Positions 2,625 through 36,418 of a stretch of 64,000 bases of DNA are shown piece after piece. The DNA is from Marilutibacter spongiae (GTDB lineage Bacteria > Pseudomonadota > Gammaproteobacteria > Xanthomonadales > Xanthomonadaceae). Positions within the stretch are counted from its first letter, which is position 1; each line of letters starts with the position of its first letter. The notes beneath the pieces are model-generated. The model did no database searches and had not been told where the DNA came from. It saw only the letters and a program-made list of their open reading frames with translations. A program made the position numbers and the translations under genes. The DNA lies in the NCBI RefSeq assembly GCF_014145325.1, contig NZ_JACHTF010000014.1, forward strand, positions 1 to 64,000, read 5' to 3'.

Positions 2625-4646
2625 TCAGCCCTGGGCGTCGGCGCTGGCCGCGGCATCGTCTGCCGCTTCCTCGCCGGCCGGCGCCGGCGCGGGCACCGTG
2701 GTGCTGGCCTGCCAGCCGCAGGTCTGGCCTTCGTTCTGCTCCTTCAGCCAGTCCTGCAGCGGTGCGAAGTATTCCAGCACCGCACCGGCGTCCATGCTCT
2801 CGCCGCCGGTCAGCTCCTTGAGGGTCTGCTGCCAGGGCTGGCTTGCGCCCTTGGCCAGCATGGCCTGGAACTTCTCGCCCGCGGCCTTGTTGCCGTAGAA
2901 GCTGCACTGGTACAGCGGGCCTTCGTATCCGGAGGCATCGCACAGCGCCTTGTAGAACTGGAACTGCAGCACGTGCGACAGGAAGTAGCGCGTGTACGGG
3001 GTGTTGCCCGGCACGTGGTACTTCGCGCCCGGGTCGAAGAACTCCTCGCCGCGCGACTCGACCGGGGCGACGCCCTGGTACTTGGCCTTCAGGTCCCACC
3101 ATGCCTTGTTGTATTCGCCCGGCGCGATCGAGCCGTCGAACACGCCCCAGCGCCAGCGGTCGATCATCAGGCCGAACGGCAGGAACGAGACCTTGGCCAG
3201 GGCCATGCGCATCTGCGCGTTGATCAGCGCCTCCTTGCTCTGCTGCTGCGCGTCCACCAGGCCGATCGACTGCAGGTACTCGGGGGTCATCGACAGCACG
3301 ATGGTGTCGCCGATGGCCTCGTGGAAGCCGTCGTGCGCGCCGTTCTGGAAGATCGGCGGCTGGTCCTTGTAGAGCATGTAGTAATAGACGTGGCCCAGCT
3401 CGTGGTAGATGGTCGTGAAGTCTTCCTCGTTGGGCTTGATGCACATCTTGGTGCGCACGTCGTCGGCCATGTCCATCGGCCAGGCGCTGGCGTGGCAGAC
3501 CACGTTGCGGTCGCGCGGCTTGATGAACTGGGTCTTGTCCCAGTACGTCGCCGGCAGCTTGGGCATGCCCAGAGAGGTGTAGAAGTCCTCGGCGCGCTCG
3601 GTCATCTGGCGCGCGGTGGCGAGATCGGCGCCATGCTCGATCTCGGCCAGGTCGGAGGCGTTGCGCTCGCCCTTGTGCCGGGCCATCCCGGCGGCGAAGT
3701 TCTGCTGCCACTGGCCTTCGAGCGCGCCGGTGATGTCCAGGCTGCCGGCGTTGCGGTAGGGCGCCAGGATGTCCCACAGGTTGCCCCAGTCCTGCTGCCA
3801 CATGTTGCCCATCAGGTGGGCGGGCAGCATGCCGCCGGCGACCTCGCCCTTGTCCTCGCCGTACTTGGCGTCCAGGCGGGTGCGGGCGTAGCAGTGCAAC
3901 TGCTCGTAGAGCGGCTTGACCTGGCCCCAGAGGCGGTCGGTCTCGGCCGCGATCTCGGCCGGGGTCATGTCGTAGCCCGAGCGCCACATCTCGCCGGCGT
4001 CGGCATAGCCCATCTCCTGGGCGCCTTCGTTGACCAGCTCCACGAAGCGGGTGTAATCCTTGCGCATCGGCTGGGCGATGGTGTGCCAGCCGCGCCAGGC
4101 GTCGAGCTGGTCGTCGTAGTCGCGGTCGCTGCGCAGCACGTCCTCGAGCTCGCCGAGCTGGCGGCACTTGCGTGCGTCGCCTTCGCCGGTGCAGTACTCG
4201 CCCTCGCCGTACATGGCCTCCATGCTGGCCGCGATCTTCGTCAGCTCCGAGAGCTTGGCCGGATCCCGCGGCGCGGGCATCGAGGTGCTCAGCTTGAGCA
4301 ACTGGATGGCGCGCGCGGTCTGCGGCGACATCTCCTGGCCCTCGAACTTCTTGGCCTGCTCGATCCAGCTGTTGAGCTGGGTCAGCATGCGTTCGTTGGC
4401 CTTGGAGGAGATCAGCTGGCTGTCGCTGTTGATGTAGGTCGAGGCGATCCACTGCGCGGAGGTGATCTCCGGGTACATGGCGCGCATCTCGTCGTTGACG
4501 CGGGCGACGAACTGGTCGGCGGTCTCGCCGCCGGGGGTGGTCGAGCCGGTGGTGCCGGCGTCGTCGCTGGACGGCTTGCTGCAGCCGGCCAGGCCGATGA
4601 CGGCCGCGGTGATGCCGAGCGCGAGCAGGGCGCGGACAGGTTTCAT
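2625..4646 (-). CDS. M2 family (angiotensin-converting-enzyme-like) dipeptidyl carboxypeptidase, lipoprotein
   Basis: The protein has 673 residues. The start at 4646 (MKPVRALLALGITAAVIGLAGCS) is chosen because AGGAG lies about 10 nt upstream and a signal peptide with lipobox LAGC (Cys22) follows directly; a longer open frame begins 16 codons earlier. The zinc motif HELGH is at residues 415-419 in the context TTIYHELGHVYYYM, followed by HEAIGD, which supplies the third ligand as in peptidase M2. Length and the MWQQDWGNLWD and GDTIVLSMTPEYL blocks also fit the ACE family. The lipoprotein signal places it in the periplasm, anchored to a membrane, where it would release C-terminal dipeptides. It is a single-gene unit with its own terminator. 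Confidence 0.92.
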   Translation of the reverse strand: MKPVRALLALGITAAVIGLAGCSKPSSDDAGTTGSTTPGGETADQFVARVNDEMRAMYPEITSAQWIASTYINSDSQLISSKANERMLTQLNSWIEQAKKFEGQEMSPQTARAIQLLKLSTSMPAPRDPAKLSELTKIAASMEAMYGEGEYCTGEGDARKCRQLGELEDVLRSDRDYDDQLDAWRGWHTIAQPMRKDYTRFVELVNEGAQEMGYADAGEMWRSGYDMTPAEIAAETDRLWGQVKPLYEQLHCYARTRLDAKYGEDKGEVAGGMLPAHLMGNMWQQDWGNLWDILAPYRNAGSLDITGALEGQWQQNFAAGMARHKGERNASDLAEIEHGADLATARQMTERAEDFYTSLGMPKLPATYWDKTQFIKPRDRNVVCHASAWPMDMADDVRTKMCIKPNEEDFTTIYHELGHVYYYMLYKDQPPIFQNGAHDGFHEAIGDTIVLSMTPEYLQSIGLVDAQQQSKEALINAQMRMALAKVSFLPFGLMIDRWRWGVFDGSIAPGEYNKAWWDLKAKYQGVAPVESRGEEFFDPGAKYHVPGNTPYTRYFLSHVLQFQFYKALCDASGYEGPLYQCSFYGNKAAGEKFQAMLAKGASQPWQQTLKELTGGESMDAGAVLEYFAPLQDWLKEQNEGQTCGWQASTTVPAPAPAGEEAADDAAASADAQG

Positions 4647-4737
4647 GGGATGGGATCTCCTCGAACGGATCGCGCCGATGCGCTGAAAACGCAAGGCTAG
4701 AGGCCGTTCCCGGGTGGCGCAAGTGCGCGAGGCGGGG

Positions 4738-5229
4738 TCAGCAGGGCGCCGGAACGGGCAGGGCGAGGGTGCGCGCCGGCAGTTCGACGAGGCCGCGGGC
4801 CTGCAGCCAGCGCCAGGCGGCGTCGGAATCGTGTTCGAAATAGGCGGCGGCCGATCCCAGCCGGAAGGTGTAGCCCCAGGCGTCCATGTCGGCCAGCACG
4901 CGCGCGCGTCCGACCCCGGGCAAAGCGTCGCCGAGCAGGGCCTGCAGGATGCAGACCGCGTCTTCCTCCTCGATCGAGTCGGTGGCGTCGGTATGGACGG
5001 CGGCGCGGCGCTCGGGCGGCAGCACGATCAGGTGGCAGGCTTCGTGCAGAAGCGAATGCACCGGCGTGTCGCCGCGCGCATGGACCGTGCTGCCGATCAG
5101 CCCGGCCTCGCATTCGCCCCAGTAGCTGCCGGGGATCGGCATGCCGTCGGCGACCCGCTCCAGGCGCAGGCCATAGCGCGCCAGCAGGGCCGCCACGGCC
5201 TCGTGTTCGATGTCGGCGAGGGTCAGCAT
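4738..5229 (-). CDS. Conserved hypothetical protein with HEXXH-like motif
   Basis: The protein has 163 residues and starts MLTLADIEHEAV. The only recognisable feature is HSLLHEACHLIVL, an HEXXH zinc signature at residues 62-66, followed about 20 residues later by the acidic stretch SIEEEDAV, which could provide a further ligand. No signal peptide or membrane segment is visible. It is collinear with minE, 51 bp downstream of it, so it may be co-transcribed with the min genes. A metal-dependent hydrolase is possible, but the family is not one I can name and the function is unknown. Confidence 0.75.
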   Translation of the reverse strand: MLTLADIEHEAVAALLARYGLRLERVADGMPIPGSYWGECEAGLIGSTVHARGDTPVHSLLHEACHLIVLPPERRAAVHTDATDSIEEEDAVCILQALLGDALPGVGRARVLADMDAWGYTFRLGSAAAYFEHDSDAAWRWLQARGLVELPARTLALPVPAPC

Positions 5230-5280
5230 CGCGGGACGCGCGGTGCGCGGCGGCGGGGTGCGCGCGCCGCGTGCCGCGGC

Positions 5281-5541
5281 TCAGGCCTGGGCGGGGTTCT
5301 CGGGCAGCGAGACCGAGATGTCCAGCACCTTGCTGTCGCCCTCGCCGATCAGGTCGACCTTGACCGCCTCGGCGTCGACGTTGACGTACTTGCGGATCAC
5401 CTCGAGGAGCTCGCGCTGCAGGGTCGGCAGGTAGTCGGGGCCGCCGCGGGTGGCGCGCTCGTGGGCGACGATGATCCGCAAGCGGTCCTTGGCGACCGAT
5501 GCCGTCTGCTTCTTGGCCAGCAGGAAGTCGAACAATCCCAT
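5281..5541 (-). CDS. minE: Cell division topological specificity factor MinE
   Basis: The protein has 86 residues ([20 protein letters not shown], then a C-terminal dimerisation half ending [11 protein letters not shown]). MinE stimulates the MinD ATPase and drives pole-to-pole oscillation of MinCD. The N-terminal part carries the MinD-binding and membrane-targeting segment. Two adjacent ATGs occur; the second (5541) is preferred because GGAGG is 6 nt upstream, whereas the first (5544) is only 3 nt away. The coding region abuts the minD stop codon, which implies translational coupling. Confidence 0.97.
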
Positions 5542-22203: not shown

Positions 22204-22884
22204 ATGAATCGTTCCCTCCTGCTGGCCGCCATCGCCACCGCGCTCGTGGCCGGTACCGCGCTCGCTGCGCCCCAGGCGCCTGAGGAAGGCCCCGACGCGC
22301 CCCCGCGCATGGCCCGCCTGGACAGCAATGGCGACGGCGCCATCGACCGGACCGAGGCTGCGGCGTCGCCCCGCCTGGTCGAGCGTTTCGATCGCATCGA
22401 CCGCAACGGCGACGGCCGCCTCACCGCGGACGAGCGACCGGGGCGCAAGCACCGCCGCGGCGGTCGCGGCGGCCTGGAGCGCATCATCGCACTCGACGCG
22501 AACGCCGATGGCCGTATCAGCAAGGTCGAGGCCGGTAACGACTCGCCGCTCGGCAAGCACTTCGACGACATCGACGCCAACCGCGACGGCTACATCGTGC
22601 GCGCCGAGCTGCGTGCCTCGCACGAGAAGATGCGCGCAGAGTTCCAGGCGCGCGCCGCCGAACGCCACAAGGCGCGATTCGCGGAGGTCGACGGCAACAA
22701 GGACGGCCGCCTGAGCCAGGCCGAAGTCGAGGCCGGCATGCCGCGGCTGGCCAAGGCCTTCGCCTTCCTCGACGAGAACCGCGATGGCTACCTCAGCGCC
22801 GAAGAAGCCCGGCCCGAGCACGGGATGATGTCGGGCCACCCCCGTGGCCGCCATGGCCGCGGCGGCGATCGCACCACGCGCTGA
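22204..22884 (+). CDS. Secreted six-EF-hand calcium-binding protein
   Basis: The protein has 226 residues. The signal peptide ([17 protein letters not shown], cleavage after TALA) is followed by six DxDxDG-type loops beginning at about Asp40, 66, 98, 124, 163 and 190 (for example [27 protein letters not shown]). The first four and last two are separated by an Arg-rich helix. The C-terminus is His/Arg/Gly-rich. Such proteins buffer or sense periplasmic calcium; a catalytic role is not expected. A good GGAG site precedes the ATG and a strong terminator follows. Confidence 0.9.
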
Positions 22885-23523: not shown

Positions 23524-24747
23524 TCAGAGCGGGAAGTCGCTCGAGCGCACCACGGCGATCGCGATGACGGCGGTCGCCAGCAGCGAGCTGTAGAGCACTG
23601 CCGTGCGCCCCAGGGTGTATTCGTAGCAGCGTCGGCGGCGCTGGTTGACCGGGTAGGCGAGGATCGGCTCCATGATCCTCGGCAGCATCACCAGGTACTG
23701 GTAGTTGATGAGGCCCATGCCAGCCAGGAAAACGATCGGCAGCGACCACCACTGCGGCACCAGCGTGAACGCCAGGACCATCGCGCCTCCCCATAGCGCC
23801 CCGGTCACGGTGTTGAGGCGCATGAAGCGCAGGACCTGCTGGCGCTCGGCCGGGGTCTGCGCCAGCCGCAGCAGGTACCACAGCGTGGCCGCGGCGCCGA
23901 ACAGGCCGCCCAGTCCGCCCAGCGCGGCCATGGCGAGGGTGTCGGCATCCAGCCACGCCGCGTTGGCGACGACCGCCATCGTGCCGCCGGCGACGCCACC
24001 CGACACGCTGCTGCCGGCGATCGCGCCGCTCCCCAGCTTGCCAAGGCCGCTGCCCACCAGGCCGCTGCCGATGACGGCGGCCGCGCTCGCCGCGGGCGAC
24101 GCGACGGCCAGGCTGCCAACGACGACCGCAGTGAAGGCCGCCCCCGGCGCGCTGCCGCGGGCGAACTCGCCGAAGCGCTCGAGCATCTCGCCACGGACCA
24201 GTTCGCGCGCCCGCGACAGGCGTTTGCGCACCGCGGCATCGCTCAGGCCGAGCAGGGCGGCGACCTGCCTTGAGCGCTGGCCTTCGCGATAGAACAGCAG
24301 CAGGGTTTCCCGGCTGTCCTCGGGCAGGCTGGAGATGATGTCGGCGGCCGCCTCTTCCTGCTCGGTCCGCAACAGACGCTCGGCGGGCGAGGGCGAAGGG
24401 TCGGCGGCCATGTTGATCGCCATCTCGGCGCCGGAGCCGGTCATCGGCTGGGCGCGCGTGGCCCGCAGGTAGTCGCGGGCCAGGTTGCGGGTGATCTGCC
24501 GCAGCCAGGGCAGGAAGCTGGCCTGGTTCTTCAACGTGTCCAGGCCCTGCCAGGCCTTCAGGAAGGCTTCCTGTGCAATGTCCTCGCTCGTGGCCACGTC
24601 GCGCACGATTGCCAGGGCGATGGCGGTGATCGAGTTCTGGCAGGCACCGACGATGCGGGCATAGGCGTCGCCGTCGCCGCGCCGGGCGGCCGGAAGGTGG
24701 CGTTCCACCAGTTGGTCGATATCGAACTCGGCGGCGATGGCGTTCAT
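23524..24747 (-). CDS. ECF sigma factor fused to C-terminal membrane domain (paralogue 2)
   Basis: The protein has 407 residues. Sigma-70 region 2 is at about 23-95 (ITAIALAIVRDVATSEDIAQ, FLPWLRQITRNLARDYLRA), and region 4 at about 140-195 (SSLPEDSRETLLLFYREGQR, LLGLSDAAVRKRLSRAREL). From about 205 the protein continues into Ala/Gly-rich hydrophobic segments (AAFTAVVVGSLAVAS, AALGGLGGLFGAAATLWYLL, ALWGGAMVLAFTLV, SLLATAVIAIAVV). The sigma half is therefore tethered to the inner membrane. No anti-sigma gene is adjacent. It is paralogous to the gene 91 bp upstream, and its own promoter-like motif lies in that gap. Confidence 0.9.
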   Translation of the reverse strand: MNAIAAEFDIDQLVERHLPAARRGDGDAYARIVGACQNSITAIALAIVRDVATSEDIAQEAFLKAWQGLDTLKNQASFLPWLRQITRNLARDYLRATRAQPMTGSGAEMAINMAADPSPSPAERLLRTEQEEAAADIISSLPEDSRETLLLFYREGQRSRQVAALLGLSDAAVRKRLSRARELVRGEMLERFGEFARGSAPGAAFTAVVVGSLAVASPAASAAAVIGSGLVGSGLGKLGSGAIAGSSVSGGVAGGTMAVVANAAWLDADTLAMAALGGLGGLFGAAATLWYLLRLAQTPAERQQVLRFMRLNTVTGALWGGAMVLAFTLVPQWWSLPIVFLAGMGLINYQYLVMLPRIMEPILAYPVNQRRRRCYEYTLGRTAVLYSSLLATAVIAIAVVRSSDFPL

Positions 24748-24794
24748 GCGGGTCTCCGTGTCGACGCGCCGTGGCCGCGCATCCTCGCCCCCCT

Positions 24795-24820
24795 GACGAG
24801 GCCCGGCGGAAAACGTGACC
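24795..24820 (-). promoter_or_regulatory. Putative ECF-type promoter before paralogue 2
   Basis: On the minus strand, GGTCAC (24820-24815), 16 bp, then CGTC (24798-24795). CGTC ends 47 bp before the ATG. The motif repeats with the same spacing and same distance to the start codon before the first gene of the cluster (26274-26299), and the spacers are also similar (TTTTCC...GGCCT versus TTTCCT...CCCC). Confidence 0.65.
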
Positions 24821-24838
24821 GGGTCGTCTCCCCCCGGT

Positions 24839-26008
24839 TCACAGGCGGCCCGAGGCCACGAGGCCCGCGAGAAGGCCTCCCAGTCCGCCCACGAGGCCGA
24901 GGCCTAGGCCGAAGCGCGCGCGCAGGCGTTCGCGCCGCCTGTCACGGGCGGCCGCTTCGGGATCGAGCGCCGCCTCGCGGGCATGCCGGCGGCGCATGGC
25001 GCGCGGTTGCACCACCATCGACTGCCAGAACACGGTGCCCATGAACAGCAGCGTCATCACGGTAGGCCACAACCACCCCCTGTCCCTTGCCGCGACGAGG
25101 GTGATCGCGACCACGAAGCCGACCGAGGCCAATGCGCATACGACGGCGCTGCGGACCAGGGCCAGGCGTTCGGCGGCGTCCAGGGCGCCCTTCAGTTGCG
25201 CACGCAGGCCCAGCCAGATGCCCGTGAGTGCCGCGATCGCACCGAACGCGATGCTACCGGCGGCCCCCAGCACGACCTGCAGGAACGTGGTCTTCGATCC
25301 TCCGGCCGCCGCCGCGCCGAGGATGCCGAATGCCGCGGCCGGTGGACTTGCCATCGCAAGCGCACCGGCCACCACGGTCGTGAACGCCGCCGACGGCGCG
25401 GTGTCGCGGGCAAGTTCTGCGAAGCGCTCCAGCAGGTCGCGCCGGACCGTGGCGCGCGCCCGCGACAGGCGCTTGCGCACGGCGGCATCGCTCAGCCCGA
25501 GCAGGTCGGCGACATGGCGTGAGCGCTGTCCTTCCCGGTAGTACAGCAGCAGGATCTCGCGACTGTCGTCGGGCAGGGCCGCGATCAGCTCCTCGATCGC
25601 AGCGCGTCGTTCGTCATCGAGCAGGCGAAGGCAGGGGTCGGGTCCAGGATCGGCGACCTGGGCAATGACGGCCTCGGCGTCGTCCACCGGTCGCGGGCGA
25701 CTCCTGCCTGCACGCAGGTGGTCGCGCGCGAGGTTGCGGGTGATCTGGCGCAGCCAGGGCAGGAAGCTGGCCGGGTTCTGCAGCCGTCTCAGGTTCATCC
25801 AAGCGCTGAGGAAGGCGTCCTGGGCGATGTCCTCGCTGGCGGGCACGTCCCGCACGATCGAAAGCGCGATGGCGGTCACCGAGTTCTGGCAAAGCGAGAC
25901 GACGCGGGCGAACGCATCGCGGTCGCCGCCGCGGGCGGCCTCGAGCAGGGGCTCGAGCTGGCGGTCGACGCCGGCGCGCGCATCCACCGATGAGAGGAGA
26001 GCGGACAT
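24839..26008 (-). CDS. ECF sigma factor fused to C-terminal membrane domain (paralogue 1)
   Basis: The protein has 389 residues. Region 2 (VTAIALSIVRDVPASEDIAQ, FLPWLRQITRNLARDHLRA) and region 4 (AALPDDSREILLLYYREGQR, LLGLSDAAVRKRLSRARAT) are nearly identical to the downstream paralogue. The C-terminal part (about 215-389) has hydrophobic segments (AFTTVVAGALAMASPPAAAF, VVCALASVGFVVAITLV, LWPTVMTLLFMGTVFWQ) separated by basic loops but is much more divergent than the sigma half. It follows a 68-aa membrane protein gene by 12 bp. Confidence 0.9.
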   Translation of the reverse strand: MSALLSSVDARAGVDRQLEPLLEAARGGDRDAFARVVSLCQNSVTAIALSIVRDVPASEDIAQDAFLSAWMNLRRLQNPASFLPWLRQITRNLARDHLRAGRSRPRPVDDAEAVIAQVADPGPDPCLRLLDDERRAAIEELIAALPDDSREILLLYYREGQRSRHVADLLGLSDAAVRKRLSRARATVRRDLLERFAELARDTAPSAAFTTVVAGALAMASPPAAAFGILGAAAAGGSKTTFLQVVLGAAGSIAFGAIAALTGIWLGLRAQLKGALDAAERLALVRSAVVCALASVGFVVAITLVAARDRGWLWPTVMTLLFMGTVFWQSMVVQPRAMRRRHAREAALDPEAAARDRRRERLRARFGLGLGLVGGLGGLLAGLVASGRL

Positions 26009-26020
26009 GTCGGCAGTCTC

Positions 26021-26227
26021 TCAGCGTTCGCCGCGCCGCGCATCCGCCAGCGCCCGGGCGATGCGCGGCCAGGCGACGACGACCATGACCGCCAGGGGCG
26101 GCCACGCTGCATCGGCCGAGCGCCAGGGGCCCAGCCCCAGGACCAGCAGGAAGACGGCCAGCGTGCTCCAGGCAAGCCTACAGAGCGTGTCGGCGGCGCG
26201 GGAACGGAAGGGGGGCAGGGCGGGCAT
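26021..26227 (-). CDS. Small membrane protein at the head of the sigma-factor operon
   Basis: The protein has 68 residues (MPALPPFRSRAADTLCRLAW) with two hydrophobic segments (STLAVFLLVLGLGPW and WPPLAVMVVVAWPRIARAL) and a basic C-terminus. GGAG lies 5 nt before the ATG. Its stop is 12 bp upstream of the sigma gene, and the promoter motif lies before it, so it should be co-expressed. It could interact with the membrane part of the sigma factor; this is inference. Confidence 0.7.
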   Translation of the reverse strand: MPALPPFRSRAADTLCRLAWSTLAVFLLVLGLGPWRSADAAWPPLAVMVVVAWPRIARALADARRGER

Positions 26228-26273: not shown

Positions 26274-26299
26274 GACGGGGCGGCGCAGGAAATGTGACC
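26274..26299 (-). promoter_or_regulatory. Putative ECF-type promoter of the sigma-factor operon
   Basis: On the minus strand, GGTCAC (26299-26294), 16 bp, then CGTC (26277-26274), which ends 46 bp before the ATG of the small membrane protein. Its match to the element at 24795-24820 in both boxes, spacing and position suggests direct autoregulation by these sigma factors. Confidence 0.65.
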
Positions 26300-26316: not shown

Positions 26317-27201
26317 TCAGATCGACGCGCCGCGCAGCACCTTCACGACCTGCCAGCGGCCATCGATGCGCCGCACCTCGAGGGTGCGGTAGGTCGCGAA
26401 CAGGCGATGGTGGTAGGCGGTGTACTCCACCTCGCCGGCGTCGGCCGCATGCGCCCGGAAGCGCCCCACGTCGACCAGCATCGCCGGACGGCCGCTCGCG
26501 CGGTGGCGGCTGCCCGGGTCCTCGTCGGCGATGCGCTCGCAGTTGGACGAGGACACCAGCTGGAGGCCCGTGTCGCCCAGCTGCGCCTGCACGGTCTCGA
26601 TCAGCGGTGCGGGTGCGTCGTGGCCATCGACCGACATGCACGCGATGTCGAGCCTGACATCGCCCAGCTCGTGCGCGAAGACGGCCTCGGCGATCGCCGT
26701 GAGGGTGGGCTGGATGCTGCCGTCGAAGGGCTCGCGTGCTTCCTGCCGCTCGGGCAGCGGTTGCGGGTTCATCGGCGTGCTGATCGCCGCGCCGGTCGCC
26801 TGGGGCCGGTTGCGGACCATGTGCACGGTCAGCGCGCCGGCGGCGATCAGCAGCACCACCAGCATCGCGTACTTGATGCGGACCACGCGGCGCTGCCGGG
26901 CGTCGCCGCCGCCGGCCGCCGCTTCCGGCTCGCGGAAGTTCGCCACGAAGCTGTCGCGCTGGCGGGTGGAGTCGATCAGTCCTGCCTCGCGGAGGATCTC
27001 GCGGGCACGGACCTGGTCGCCCGACTGGACGACCCAGACCGCCGCCTTCGGCCCGCTGGTGTCGCCATAGCTGAAGTTGCCGCGACGATTGCCACGGTAC
27101 GAGCGGCCATCGGTGATGCGGACCTCGATGCCGGCCTCGGACAGGACCTGGGCGACGGCTTCGACGTTCTCGAGGCGGGGGCTGCTGAATACCTGGCGCA
27201 T
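26317..27201 (-). CDS. DUF2007 domain membrane protein (pathogenicity-like protein of Xanthomonads)
   Basis: The protein has 294 residues. The N-terminal DUF2007-type domain (MRQVFSSPRLENVEAVAQVL to about residue 75, with VWVVQSGDQVRAREIL) is followed by a short cytoplasmic linker. One transmembrane helix (YAMLVVLLIAAGALTVHMV) lies at about 111-129, and a periplasmic domain with two Cys follows (DIACMSVDG and SSNCERIAD). Xanthomonad homologues are annotated as pathogenicity-like; no function is proven. It is 3 bp downstream of tesB, on the same strand. Confidence 0.75.
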   Translation of the reverse strand: MRQVFSSPRLENVEAVAQVLSEAGIEVRITDGRSYRGNRRGNFSYGDTSGPKAAVWVVQSGDQVRAREILREAGLIDSTRQRDSFVANFREPEAAAGGGDARQRRVVRIKYAMLVVLLIAAGALTVHMVRNRPQATGAAISTPMNPQPLPERQEAREPFDGSIQPTLTAIAEAVFAHELGDVRLDIACMSVDGHDAPAPLIETVQAQLGDTGLQLVSSSNCERIADEDPGSRHRASGRPAMLVDVGRFRAHAADAGEVEYTAYHHRLFATYRTLEVRRIDGRWQVVKVLRGASI

Positions 27202-35461: not shown

Positions 35462-36322
35462 TTACCGGTCGGGCAACGGGATGAACTCGTCGTCGCCCTC
35501 GATCCGGCCGAAACGACCGGCCACCCAGTCCTCCTTGGCCTGCTCGATCCGCTCCTGCGAACTGGACACGAAGTTCCACCACATGTGGCGGGGGCGGTCG
35601 AGCGGTTCGCCGCCCAGCAGCATGGCCTTGAGGGGGCTGCGCGCGCGCAGGCGCGGGCGGCTGCCGGGCTCGAGCACCACCAGGTGCTTGTCGGGGATGT
35701 CGGTGCCGTCGAGCTGGGCATCACCCTCGAGGACGTAGAGCGCGCGTTCCGGGTGGCTGGCCTCCAGGAACATTTCCGCCTCCGGGTCCAGGTCGATCGC
35801 CACGTACAGGGTGTCGGCGAAGACCTTCACCGGGGACTCCCCGCCGTAGCCGCGGCCGGCGACGATGCGCAGCCAGCGGCCGTCATGCCGCAGCTGGGGC
35901 AGGCTGTCGGCGGCATGGTGGTGGAAGGCCGGCGCGGTCTCCTCGTCGGGCAGGGGCAGCGCCACCCATGTCTGCATGCCGTGCAGCGGGTGCTCGCCTT
36001 CCCGCAGGATCGCCGGGGTCCGCTCGGAGTGTGCGATGCCACGCCCGGCGGTCATCCAGTTGACGTCGCCGGGCCGGATGTCCTGGTCGCTGCCGAGGGT
36101 GTCGCGATGGTTGATGCAGCCCGACCACAGGAAGGTCACCGTGGCCAGCCCGATGTGGGGGTGGGGCCTTACGTCGACGCCCTGTCCCGGCTGGAAGGTC
36201 GCCGGTCCCATGTGGTCGACGAAGACGAAGGGTCCCACGCTGCGCGCCTTCAGGCTCGGCACCGCGCGGCGTACCTGGAAGCCGCCGAGGTCATGGACGC
36301 GGGGGGCGATGATCGTGCTCAT
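35462..36322 (-). CDS. Pirin family protein (second copy)
   Basis: The protein has 286 residues. The cupin metal motif is RPHPHIGLATVTFLWSG with a later HSERTPA segment, and the C-terminal cupin includes ALYVLEGDAQLDGTDI and the MWWNFVSSSQERIEQAKEDW tail typical of pirins. It differs clearly from the pirin at 32376 (different metal-motif context), so the two are old paralogues rather than a recent duplication. It is monocistronic. Confidence 0.93.
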   Translation of the reverse strand: MSTIIAPRVHDLGGFQVRRAVPSLKARSVGPFVFVDHMGPATFQPGQGVDVRPHPHIGLATVTFLWSGCINHRDTLGSDQDIRPGDVNWMTAGRGIAHSERTPAILREGEHPLHGMQTWVALPLPDEETAPAFHHHAADSLPQLRHDGRWLRIVAGRGYGGESPVKVFADTLYVAIDLDPEAEMFLEASHPERALYVLEGDAQLDGTDIPDKHLVVLEPGSRPRLRARSPLKAMLLGGEPLDRPRHMWWNFVSSSQERIEQAKEDWVAGRFGRIEGDDEFIPLPDR

Positions 36323-36418
36323 GGGCCTGCGCTCGTTTGGGAGGGGGGGGACGAGGATCGCATCCCAGGCGTGACGCCGGGAGCGAACCGGTGCAACGCT
36401 GCGTTGCCGTCGCGTGGT

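Follow-up and report, generated by a model that had tools for sequence, protein, structure and literature searches.

Some extracytoplasmic function (ECF) σ factors carry a membrane part in the same polypeptide. According to passages of a review (PMC8999054), the σ of IutY (group ECF243) is C-terminally fused to a membrane regulatory part and released by proteolysis, as part of an aerobactin-responsive cell-surface signalling system for iron starvation; in the actinobacterial groups ECF48, ECF52, and ECF53, a C-terminal membrane extension, in which a zinc-finger domain is combined with one or two helices, is expected to act as an anti-σ. Here we analyze two adjacent σ-membrane fusions, P0002 and P0003, encoded together with a 68-amino-acid (aa) membrane protein, P0001, in a 64,000-nucleotide (nt) stretch of Marilutibacter spongiae DNA (contig NZ_JACHTF010000014.1, positions 1 to 64,000; hereafter, the window). 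An earlier note on this stretch (the original prediction) had counted membrane-fused ECF σs as a known kind, as IutY and groups ECF48, ECF52, and ECF53 bear out. What is new, beyond that note, is a conserved promoter-like motif at the fusion genes, suggesting autoregulation, and a predicted regulon of ATP-binding cassette (ABC) exporters; these form the main evidence presented below. P0003 and P0002 represent two subfamilies, A and B, which we regard as probably autoinducing, membrane-anchored ECF σs with a built-in membrane sensor/anti-σ that would control envelope export pumps.

Like IutY, A and B carry an ECF σ and a C-terminal membrane part in one protein; unlike IutY, they have about five hydrophobic segments, lack a FecR match (Pfam, E up to 1, searched in the pair), and have ABC exporters as predicted targets. 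A siderophore (TonB-dependent) receptor gene lies near ECF243/IutY-like σs; none was found among the scanned neighbors of the fusions, which were only partly identified by Pfam. A and B share a C-terminal membrane extension with groups ECF48, ECF52, and ECF53, but differ from them in phylum, in having more hydrophobic segments, and in lacking a zinc-finger match, both in the pair (E up to 1) and in 42 C-terminal domains of the family (E up to 0.01). Judged against the ECF groups in those review passages (PMC8999054), the family appears to be set apart by its multisegment domain, which matches neither zinc fingers nor FecR, and by its predicted exporter regulon. We recognized no paper describing the fusion family, judging by titles and abstract openings in a search that largely excluded subscription papers.

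P0001 (26021..26227), P0002 (389 aa; 24839..26008, with a possible alternative start at 25987), and P0003 (407 aa; 23524..24747) are three co-directional open reading frames (ORFs) on the minus strand, placed as originally predicted. Both fusions are ECF σs by their domains: Sigma70_r2 and Sigma70_r4_2 exceed the Pfam cut-offs and TIGR02937 (sigma70-ECF) exceeds its own. In P0002 the two Pfam domains span residues 40-102 (25703..25891, E 9.7e-13) and 136-187 (25448..25603, E 1.6e-12), and in P0003 residues 34-98 (24454..24648, E 1.5e-14) and 134-182 (24202..24348, E 2.7e-11), all on the minus strand. Both proteins have hydrophobic segments beyond region 4, confirming the C-terminal membrane fusion; the membrane domain occupies 24842..25426 in P0002, counted from a conserved F-A-x3-A-P-x3-F junction, and 23527..24177 in P0003 (both minus strand). 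The σ halves had been called nearly identical, which is too strong because A and B share 73% identity in region 2 (54/74) and 69% in region 4 (40/58), and 63% over residues 1-195 (121/191). The membrane halves have indeed diverged strongly, with 21% identity (32/152) over the C-terminal part. A frameshift artefact, raised in the original prediction as a possible explanation of the fusion, is excluded because full-length fusions recur across many genera: a fusion copy is present in 96 of 198 sampled Lysobacteraceae genomes (E ≤ 1e-30).

A promoter-like motif, GGTCACAT-N14-CGTC, is conserved at the family's genes and at both window units. We first noticed it in the stretch before the A gene that is common to the window and a relative, as GTCAC[A/G]T...CGTC with 16 nt from GTCAC to CGTC. 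The predicted promoter of the P0001-P0002 unit (26274..26298, minus strand; −35 GTCACAT, −10 CGTC, the same 16 nt) starts 71 nt upstream of the 68-aa gene, and that of the A gene (24795..24819, minus strand; −35 GTCACG, −10 CGTC) starts 72 nt upstream of its gene and occurs at the same place in Marilutibacter (Lysobacter) aestuarii. For comparison we took 80 loci from 79 of the 95 other genomes, with genes predicted by a caller trained on the window; some of these loci stop at contig ends, and three (L118-L120) are located elsewhere and were left out of the motif count. The motif lies upstream of 77 of 86 family genes in the other loci (A, 48/48; B, 29/38), with a median start 58 nt before the called gene start. 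Six of the nine B genes without it are second genes close behind an A gene (from overlapping to 73 nt away); in the other three, GTCACAT is intact but the −10 has changed. Across about 957 kb of family loci plus the window, all 77 matches to GTCACA-N13..17-CGTC (76 distinct, one locus being duplicated) face a σ-fusion gene (74) or a small ORF preceding one (3, including the window's 68-aa ORF); five control patterns, scrambled or mis-spaced, matched 1 to 13 times in the same ~957 kb. A motif before the σ-fusion genes is what one would expect under positive autoregulation. A third window match, GTCACG...CGTC at 36350-36375 (minus strand), has a pirin gene (35462-36322) about 28 nt downstream and may be due to chance; pirin-like genes also adjoin tesB in the loci of genus g14.

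Outside the σ locus, the motif tracks the fusion gene. Among 119 genomes, we counted 67 extra sites in the 60 with the fusion (σ+) versus 18 in the 59 without it (σ−); 40 σ+ versus 15 σ− genomes had at least one (Fisher, 8e-6), and three of the 18 σ− sites fall in one genome (G104) whose genus otherwise has the σ (G044, G077). A backward control pattern gave 21 hits in σ+ and 12 in σ− genomes. We examined 40 extra sites, picked by eye and partly for recurring spacer letters, so that their gene assignments serve as a lead only: 12 sit at a TAP-like hydrolase gene and 9 at the gene for a MacA-like adaptor; another 2 precede a different ABC transporter, and 2 more precede Band_7-NfeD or NfeD genes. 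In scanned examples, genes for an ABC ATPase and an ABC-2 permease come after the hydrolase gene, and those for an ABC ATPase and MacB/FtsX permeases after the MacA-like gene.

The two exporter operons were then compared in 29 σ+ and 30 σ− genomes, each sample with one genome per genus. The genes themselves are nearly universal (MacA-like, 29/29 σ+ and 28/30 σ−; TAP-like hydrolase, 29/29 and 29/30), whereas a motif in the intergenic stretch before the MacA-like gene occurs in 18/29 σ+ versus 2/28 σ− genomes (p 1.6e-5), and one before the hydrolase-NatAB-like operon in 20/29 versus 2/28 (p 1.5e-6). For the hydrolase, one σ+ gene lies in pieces on two contigs; one piece and one σ− locus (L275, L311) were dropped for their short upstream sequence, leaving 29 and 28 loci. 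Motif hits within called genes were removed, which lowered the σ+ counts from 24/29 to 20/29 (hydrolase) and from 19/29 to 18/29 (MacA); one removed hit per operon (L273, L212) may be genuine, since the caller over-extends genes. Six genera contain both kinds of genome: for MacA, the contrast is as predicted in g1, g4, g7, g28, and g32, with a tie in g38; for the hydrolase, it is as predicted in g4, g7, g32, and g38, and in g28 depends on a doubtful far-upstream site. In the M. spongiae genome itself, a strict motif site stands before the MacA-like gene (C52:153788), and a site with one extra spacer base ends about 43 nt before the hydrolase gene. As sequence features, then, the fusion, the motif, its link to the σ, and its position before exporter genes are established.

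Several side observations concern these sites. In the σ+ loci L196-L207, across genera, the −10 ends 5-14 nt before the called start of the MacA-like gene, suggesting a nearly leaderless transcript. The motif precedes a Band_7-NfeD pair in one relative (L185) and an NfeD gene in another (L186); in L185 (genome G041, ~3030-5300), the motif-bearing Band_7/NfeD unit is divergent from an ECF-like gene of 165 aa, recognized by eye. Bacillus subtilis Sigma-W is an envelope-stress ECF σ whose targets include membrane-protein and exporter genes, among them SPFH/NfeD genes, and the placement of the motif in these two relatives is reminiscent of it. Unlike what we propose for A and B, Sigma-W has a separate anti-σ, RsiW, as mentioned in part of a paper on group ECF41 (PMC3426412). 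Two identical motif copies lie 7.7 kb apart in genome G101 (L154 and L155), with no downstream gene called in the examined stretches, and in two g14 genomes (L159 and L181) the motif precedes a gene of ~400-430 aa, whose longer call has a signal-peptide-like start, followed by a second gene.

Other results weigh against control of exporters by a σ with a built-in sensor. Fifteen of the 40 examined extra sites lie before other genes, within a gene, or before none; 11 (MacA) and 9 (hydrolase) of the 29 σ+ genomes lack a counted site, and two σ− genomes per operon retain one. The σ+ and σ− genomes group by lineage, and the g1 hydrolase contrast is reversed (motif absent in σ+ G019, present in σ− G141). 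Some counted sites are oddly distant upstream (L209, L221, L277), and one of the three strict sites in the M. spongiae genome falls within a gene on the opposite strand. As for the membrane domain, it is weakly conserved apart from the junction (mean column identity, 34%), which makes a common signal for the family uncertain. An AlphaFold2 model of P0003 (input aligned with P0002 and two relatives) has four long C-terminal helices at low confidence; with a mean pLDDT of 47, the model is too poor for a sequestering interface to be visible.

With these points taken into account, we propose that the C-terminal multihelix membrane domain serves as built-in sensor and anti-σ: it would hold the σ half until an envelope disturbance allows that half to join RNA polymerase, perhaps through a cut near the conserved AP-x3-F/Ala-rich junction. 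The σ half would then transcribe from the predicted GGTCACAT-N14-CGTC promoters of its own gene and the 68-aa gene, and would also drive the MacA/MacB-like ABC exporter operon and the TAP-like hydrolase-NatAB-like ABC exporter operon. Promoter recognition, sequestration, the signal, release (by proteolysis or through tethered activity), and a benefit from the exporters are the parts of this scheme that we infer. Holding, sensing, and release by the membrane domain are suggested by analogy, from fused precedents such as IutY and from the lack of a recognized anti-σ at the locus; the suggestion in the original prediction that the membrane half may itself hold or release the σ half fits our findings. 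The family would thus combine sensor and switch in one protein, with a defined motif and a predicted core regulon. Control of a σ by a fused membrane domain is directly testable here because of that motif and regulon and because nature supplies both present/absent and one-/two-copy comparisons; the predicted targets also suggest how Lysobacteraceae could switch on export pumps.

The junction reads F-A-x3-A-P-x3-F in both membrane halves; in an alignment of 42 members, the first F is at least 90% conserved, and both A residues, the P, and the final F never vary. For the whole family we used 91 rows, leaving out L054 and L055 (second copies of L001 and L002) and proteins of <300 aa (the pieces of L090). 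AP-x3-F occurs in 91/91 rows, and a loose pattern of a conserved proline followed by an Ala-x-Ala-like step after the first hydrophobic segment occurs in 89/91. By one simple hydropathy threshold, 60 of the 91 rows have five hydrophobic segments, 18 have six, 10 have four, 2 have seven, and 1 has three. No Pfam family is common to more than one of the 42 C-terminal domains, and Foldseek gave no match at E ≤ 0.001 for the P0003 model, its best hits being AlgU and sigma-E. The proline plus Ala-x-Ala step resembles a signal-peptidase site, a resemblance that is a lead only because Ala-rich helices easily satisfy so loose a pattern; site-1 cleavage of the Bacillus anti-σ RsiP by signal peptidase has reportedly been observed. 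A more specific version of our proposal, in which Lysobacteraceae possess one-protein envelope-stress systems (self-inducing fusions of a polytopic sensor to an ECF σ with a tiny ABC-exporter regulon) whose σ is freed by cleavage at the Pro plus Ala-x-Ala step and whose paired A and B copies are two sensors for one regulon, is doubtful as a whole.

Release by cleavage has a serious, if rather unlikely, competitor: the σ might work while membrane bound, like membrane-tethered one-component regulators, with the membrane domain merely tuning its conformation. No protease or anti-σ gene was recognized at the window locus, as this alternative would have it, and the presence of AP-x3-F in every row is also compatible with a fixed tether. 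IutY, a characterized σ-anti-σ fusion, is on the other hand freed by proteolysis (PMC8999054, in part); the sequences here do not decide the matter.

The built-in anti-σ of our proposal must also be weighed against a separate one, which could be the upstream DUF2007-like membrane protein, the 68-aa protein, or an unlinked protein; we consider this improbable. In agreement with the original prediction, the pair's neighbors (DUF2007-like, tesB-like acyl-CoA thioesterase, EF-hand, and arginyl-transferase genes) match no anti-σ family in Pfam. The DUF2007-like protein (26317..27201, minus strand; E 0.00016, below the Pfam cut-off) is a candidate in that it contains a hydrophobic segment and its gene was called at 75 of the 80 loci, mostly directly upstream and co-directional. 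However, DUF2007 still follows tesB in 27 of 29 σ-less loci (the thirtieth searched genome had no tesB match); because it is retained without the σ, we set it aside as a dedicated anti-σ, and it probably lies outside the σ system. P0001 does head the B unit, as the original prediction had it, and sits behind the predicted B promoter; its codon use is coding-like (codon score 17.5), and Pfam, NCBIfam, and PHROGs all returned no family for it. Only 2 of the 80 other loci have a small ORF called between the motif and the σ gene (L056, 54 aa; L111, 56 aa), and a 41-aa ORF in L067 stands before the motif rather than behind it; the 68-aa protein is an optional extra outside the core system.

Could the motif belong to another σ, for example of the ECF41 type, with the fusion merely one of its targets? 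The motif closely resembles the ECF41 promoter, TGTCACA-n16-CGTC, and ECF41 σs likewise have a C-terminal regulatory extension and no anti-σ gene nearby, according to part of a paper on that group in which the word transmembrane is used 0 times (PMC3426412). The same source gives their targets as carboxymuconolactone decarboxylase, oxidoreductase, or epimerase genes (PMC3426412, in part). A and B share the very similar motif, the extension, and the lack of a recognized anti-σ gene nearby, but differ in that none of these target types was seen for them. The ECF41 extension is SnoaL-like; no SnoaL-like extension was matched by Pfam in the pair or in the 42 C-terminal domains. Seven other ECF σ genes of the M. 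spongiae genome, found by similarity to P0003 at E 1e-5 (a distant σ could escape this search), have no motif within 350 nt upstream. Their products carry no large extension: at 189-213 aa, each matches regions 2 and 4 and shows no other sizeable domain. The next gene always runs in the same direction; the three of these that were scanned match RseA_N, FecR, and the ChrR cupin. Since, in addition, all motif matches in the family loci face fusion genes or their leader ORFs and the sites elsewhere track the fusion gene, we judge a foreign σ to be quite improbable, and prefer recognition of the motif by the fusions themselves. That the fusion is a decayed or accidental one with no regulatory role is extremely improbable: one copy appears broken (L090 in G191, split into pieces of 264 and 141 aa), whereas the same architecture, with conserved promoter and junction, is kept across the family.

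The fusion is an old Lysobacteraceae family, located mostly at one site beside tesB and the DUF2007 gene. Its membrane domain was found in 62 of 299 genomes of the order (E ≤ 1e-6), 51 of them of the same family and six in the neighboring family f9 (E ~1e-40), and in 9 of 398 genomes of a phylum sample, six of which are Lysobacteraceae. Weaker matches elsewhere in the order and class sit in open frames of 557-582 aa; at four loci of other families with such longer frames, no σ gene was called (by the caller trained on the GC-rich window) and no strict motif was found.

The split into subfamilies A and B is ancient: in a tree of the 91 rows, the A clade (49 rows, support 100/100) is apart from the B rows. 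The window's A protein is 94% identical to the copy in M. aestuarii, the nearest named relative, while its B protein clusters with copies of another genus (support 98/95). M. aestuarii lacks the P0001-P0002 unit; there, the A promoter and A come directly after the DUF2007 gene. The tandem pair had been called unusual; that view loses force, since 11 of the 96 genomes (the window's included) have adjacent copies, spread over three genera (g14, g17, and g1, to which the window belongs). The order is B then A in the window versus A then B in the ten other genomes (g14, g17). Shared descent of the window's B with the tandem B copies of g17, a grouping chosen after the first tree, was rejected by an approximately unbiased (AU) test (p 0.00013). 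Because the nearest relative lacks the B unit, the g17 grouping is rejected, and the order is reversed, the window pair probably came together afresh, either because a B unit was gained, perhaps from another lineage, or through a deeper duplication followed by losses. Since A and B share a promoter class and have very different membrane halves, the pair may represent two sensors feeding one regulon.

The surroundings of the fusion are well kept. By Pfam matches of the window's genes, neighbors called among the 80 loci were tesB-like (76), DUF2007-like (75), arginyl-transferase (ATE; 64), and EF-hand (57) genes, commonly in the order tesB, DUF2007, σ fusion, EF-hand (opposite strand), and ATE. 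The EF-hand gene (window 22204-22884, plus strand) encodes a secreted-looking protein and keeps its place beside the σ gene in many loci; in the g14 loci it is divergent from the σ promoter.

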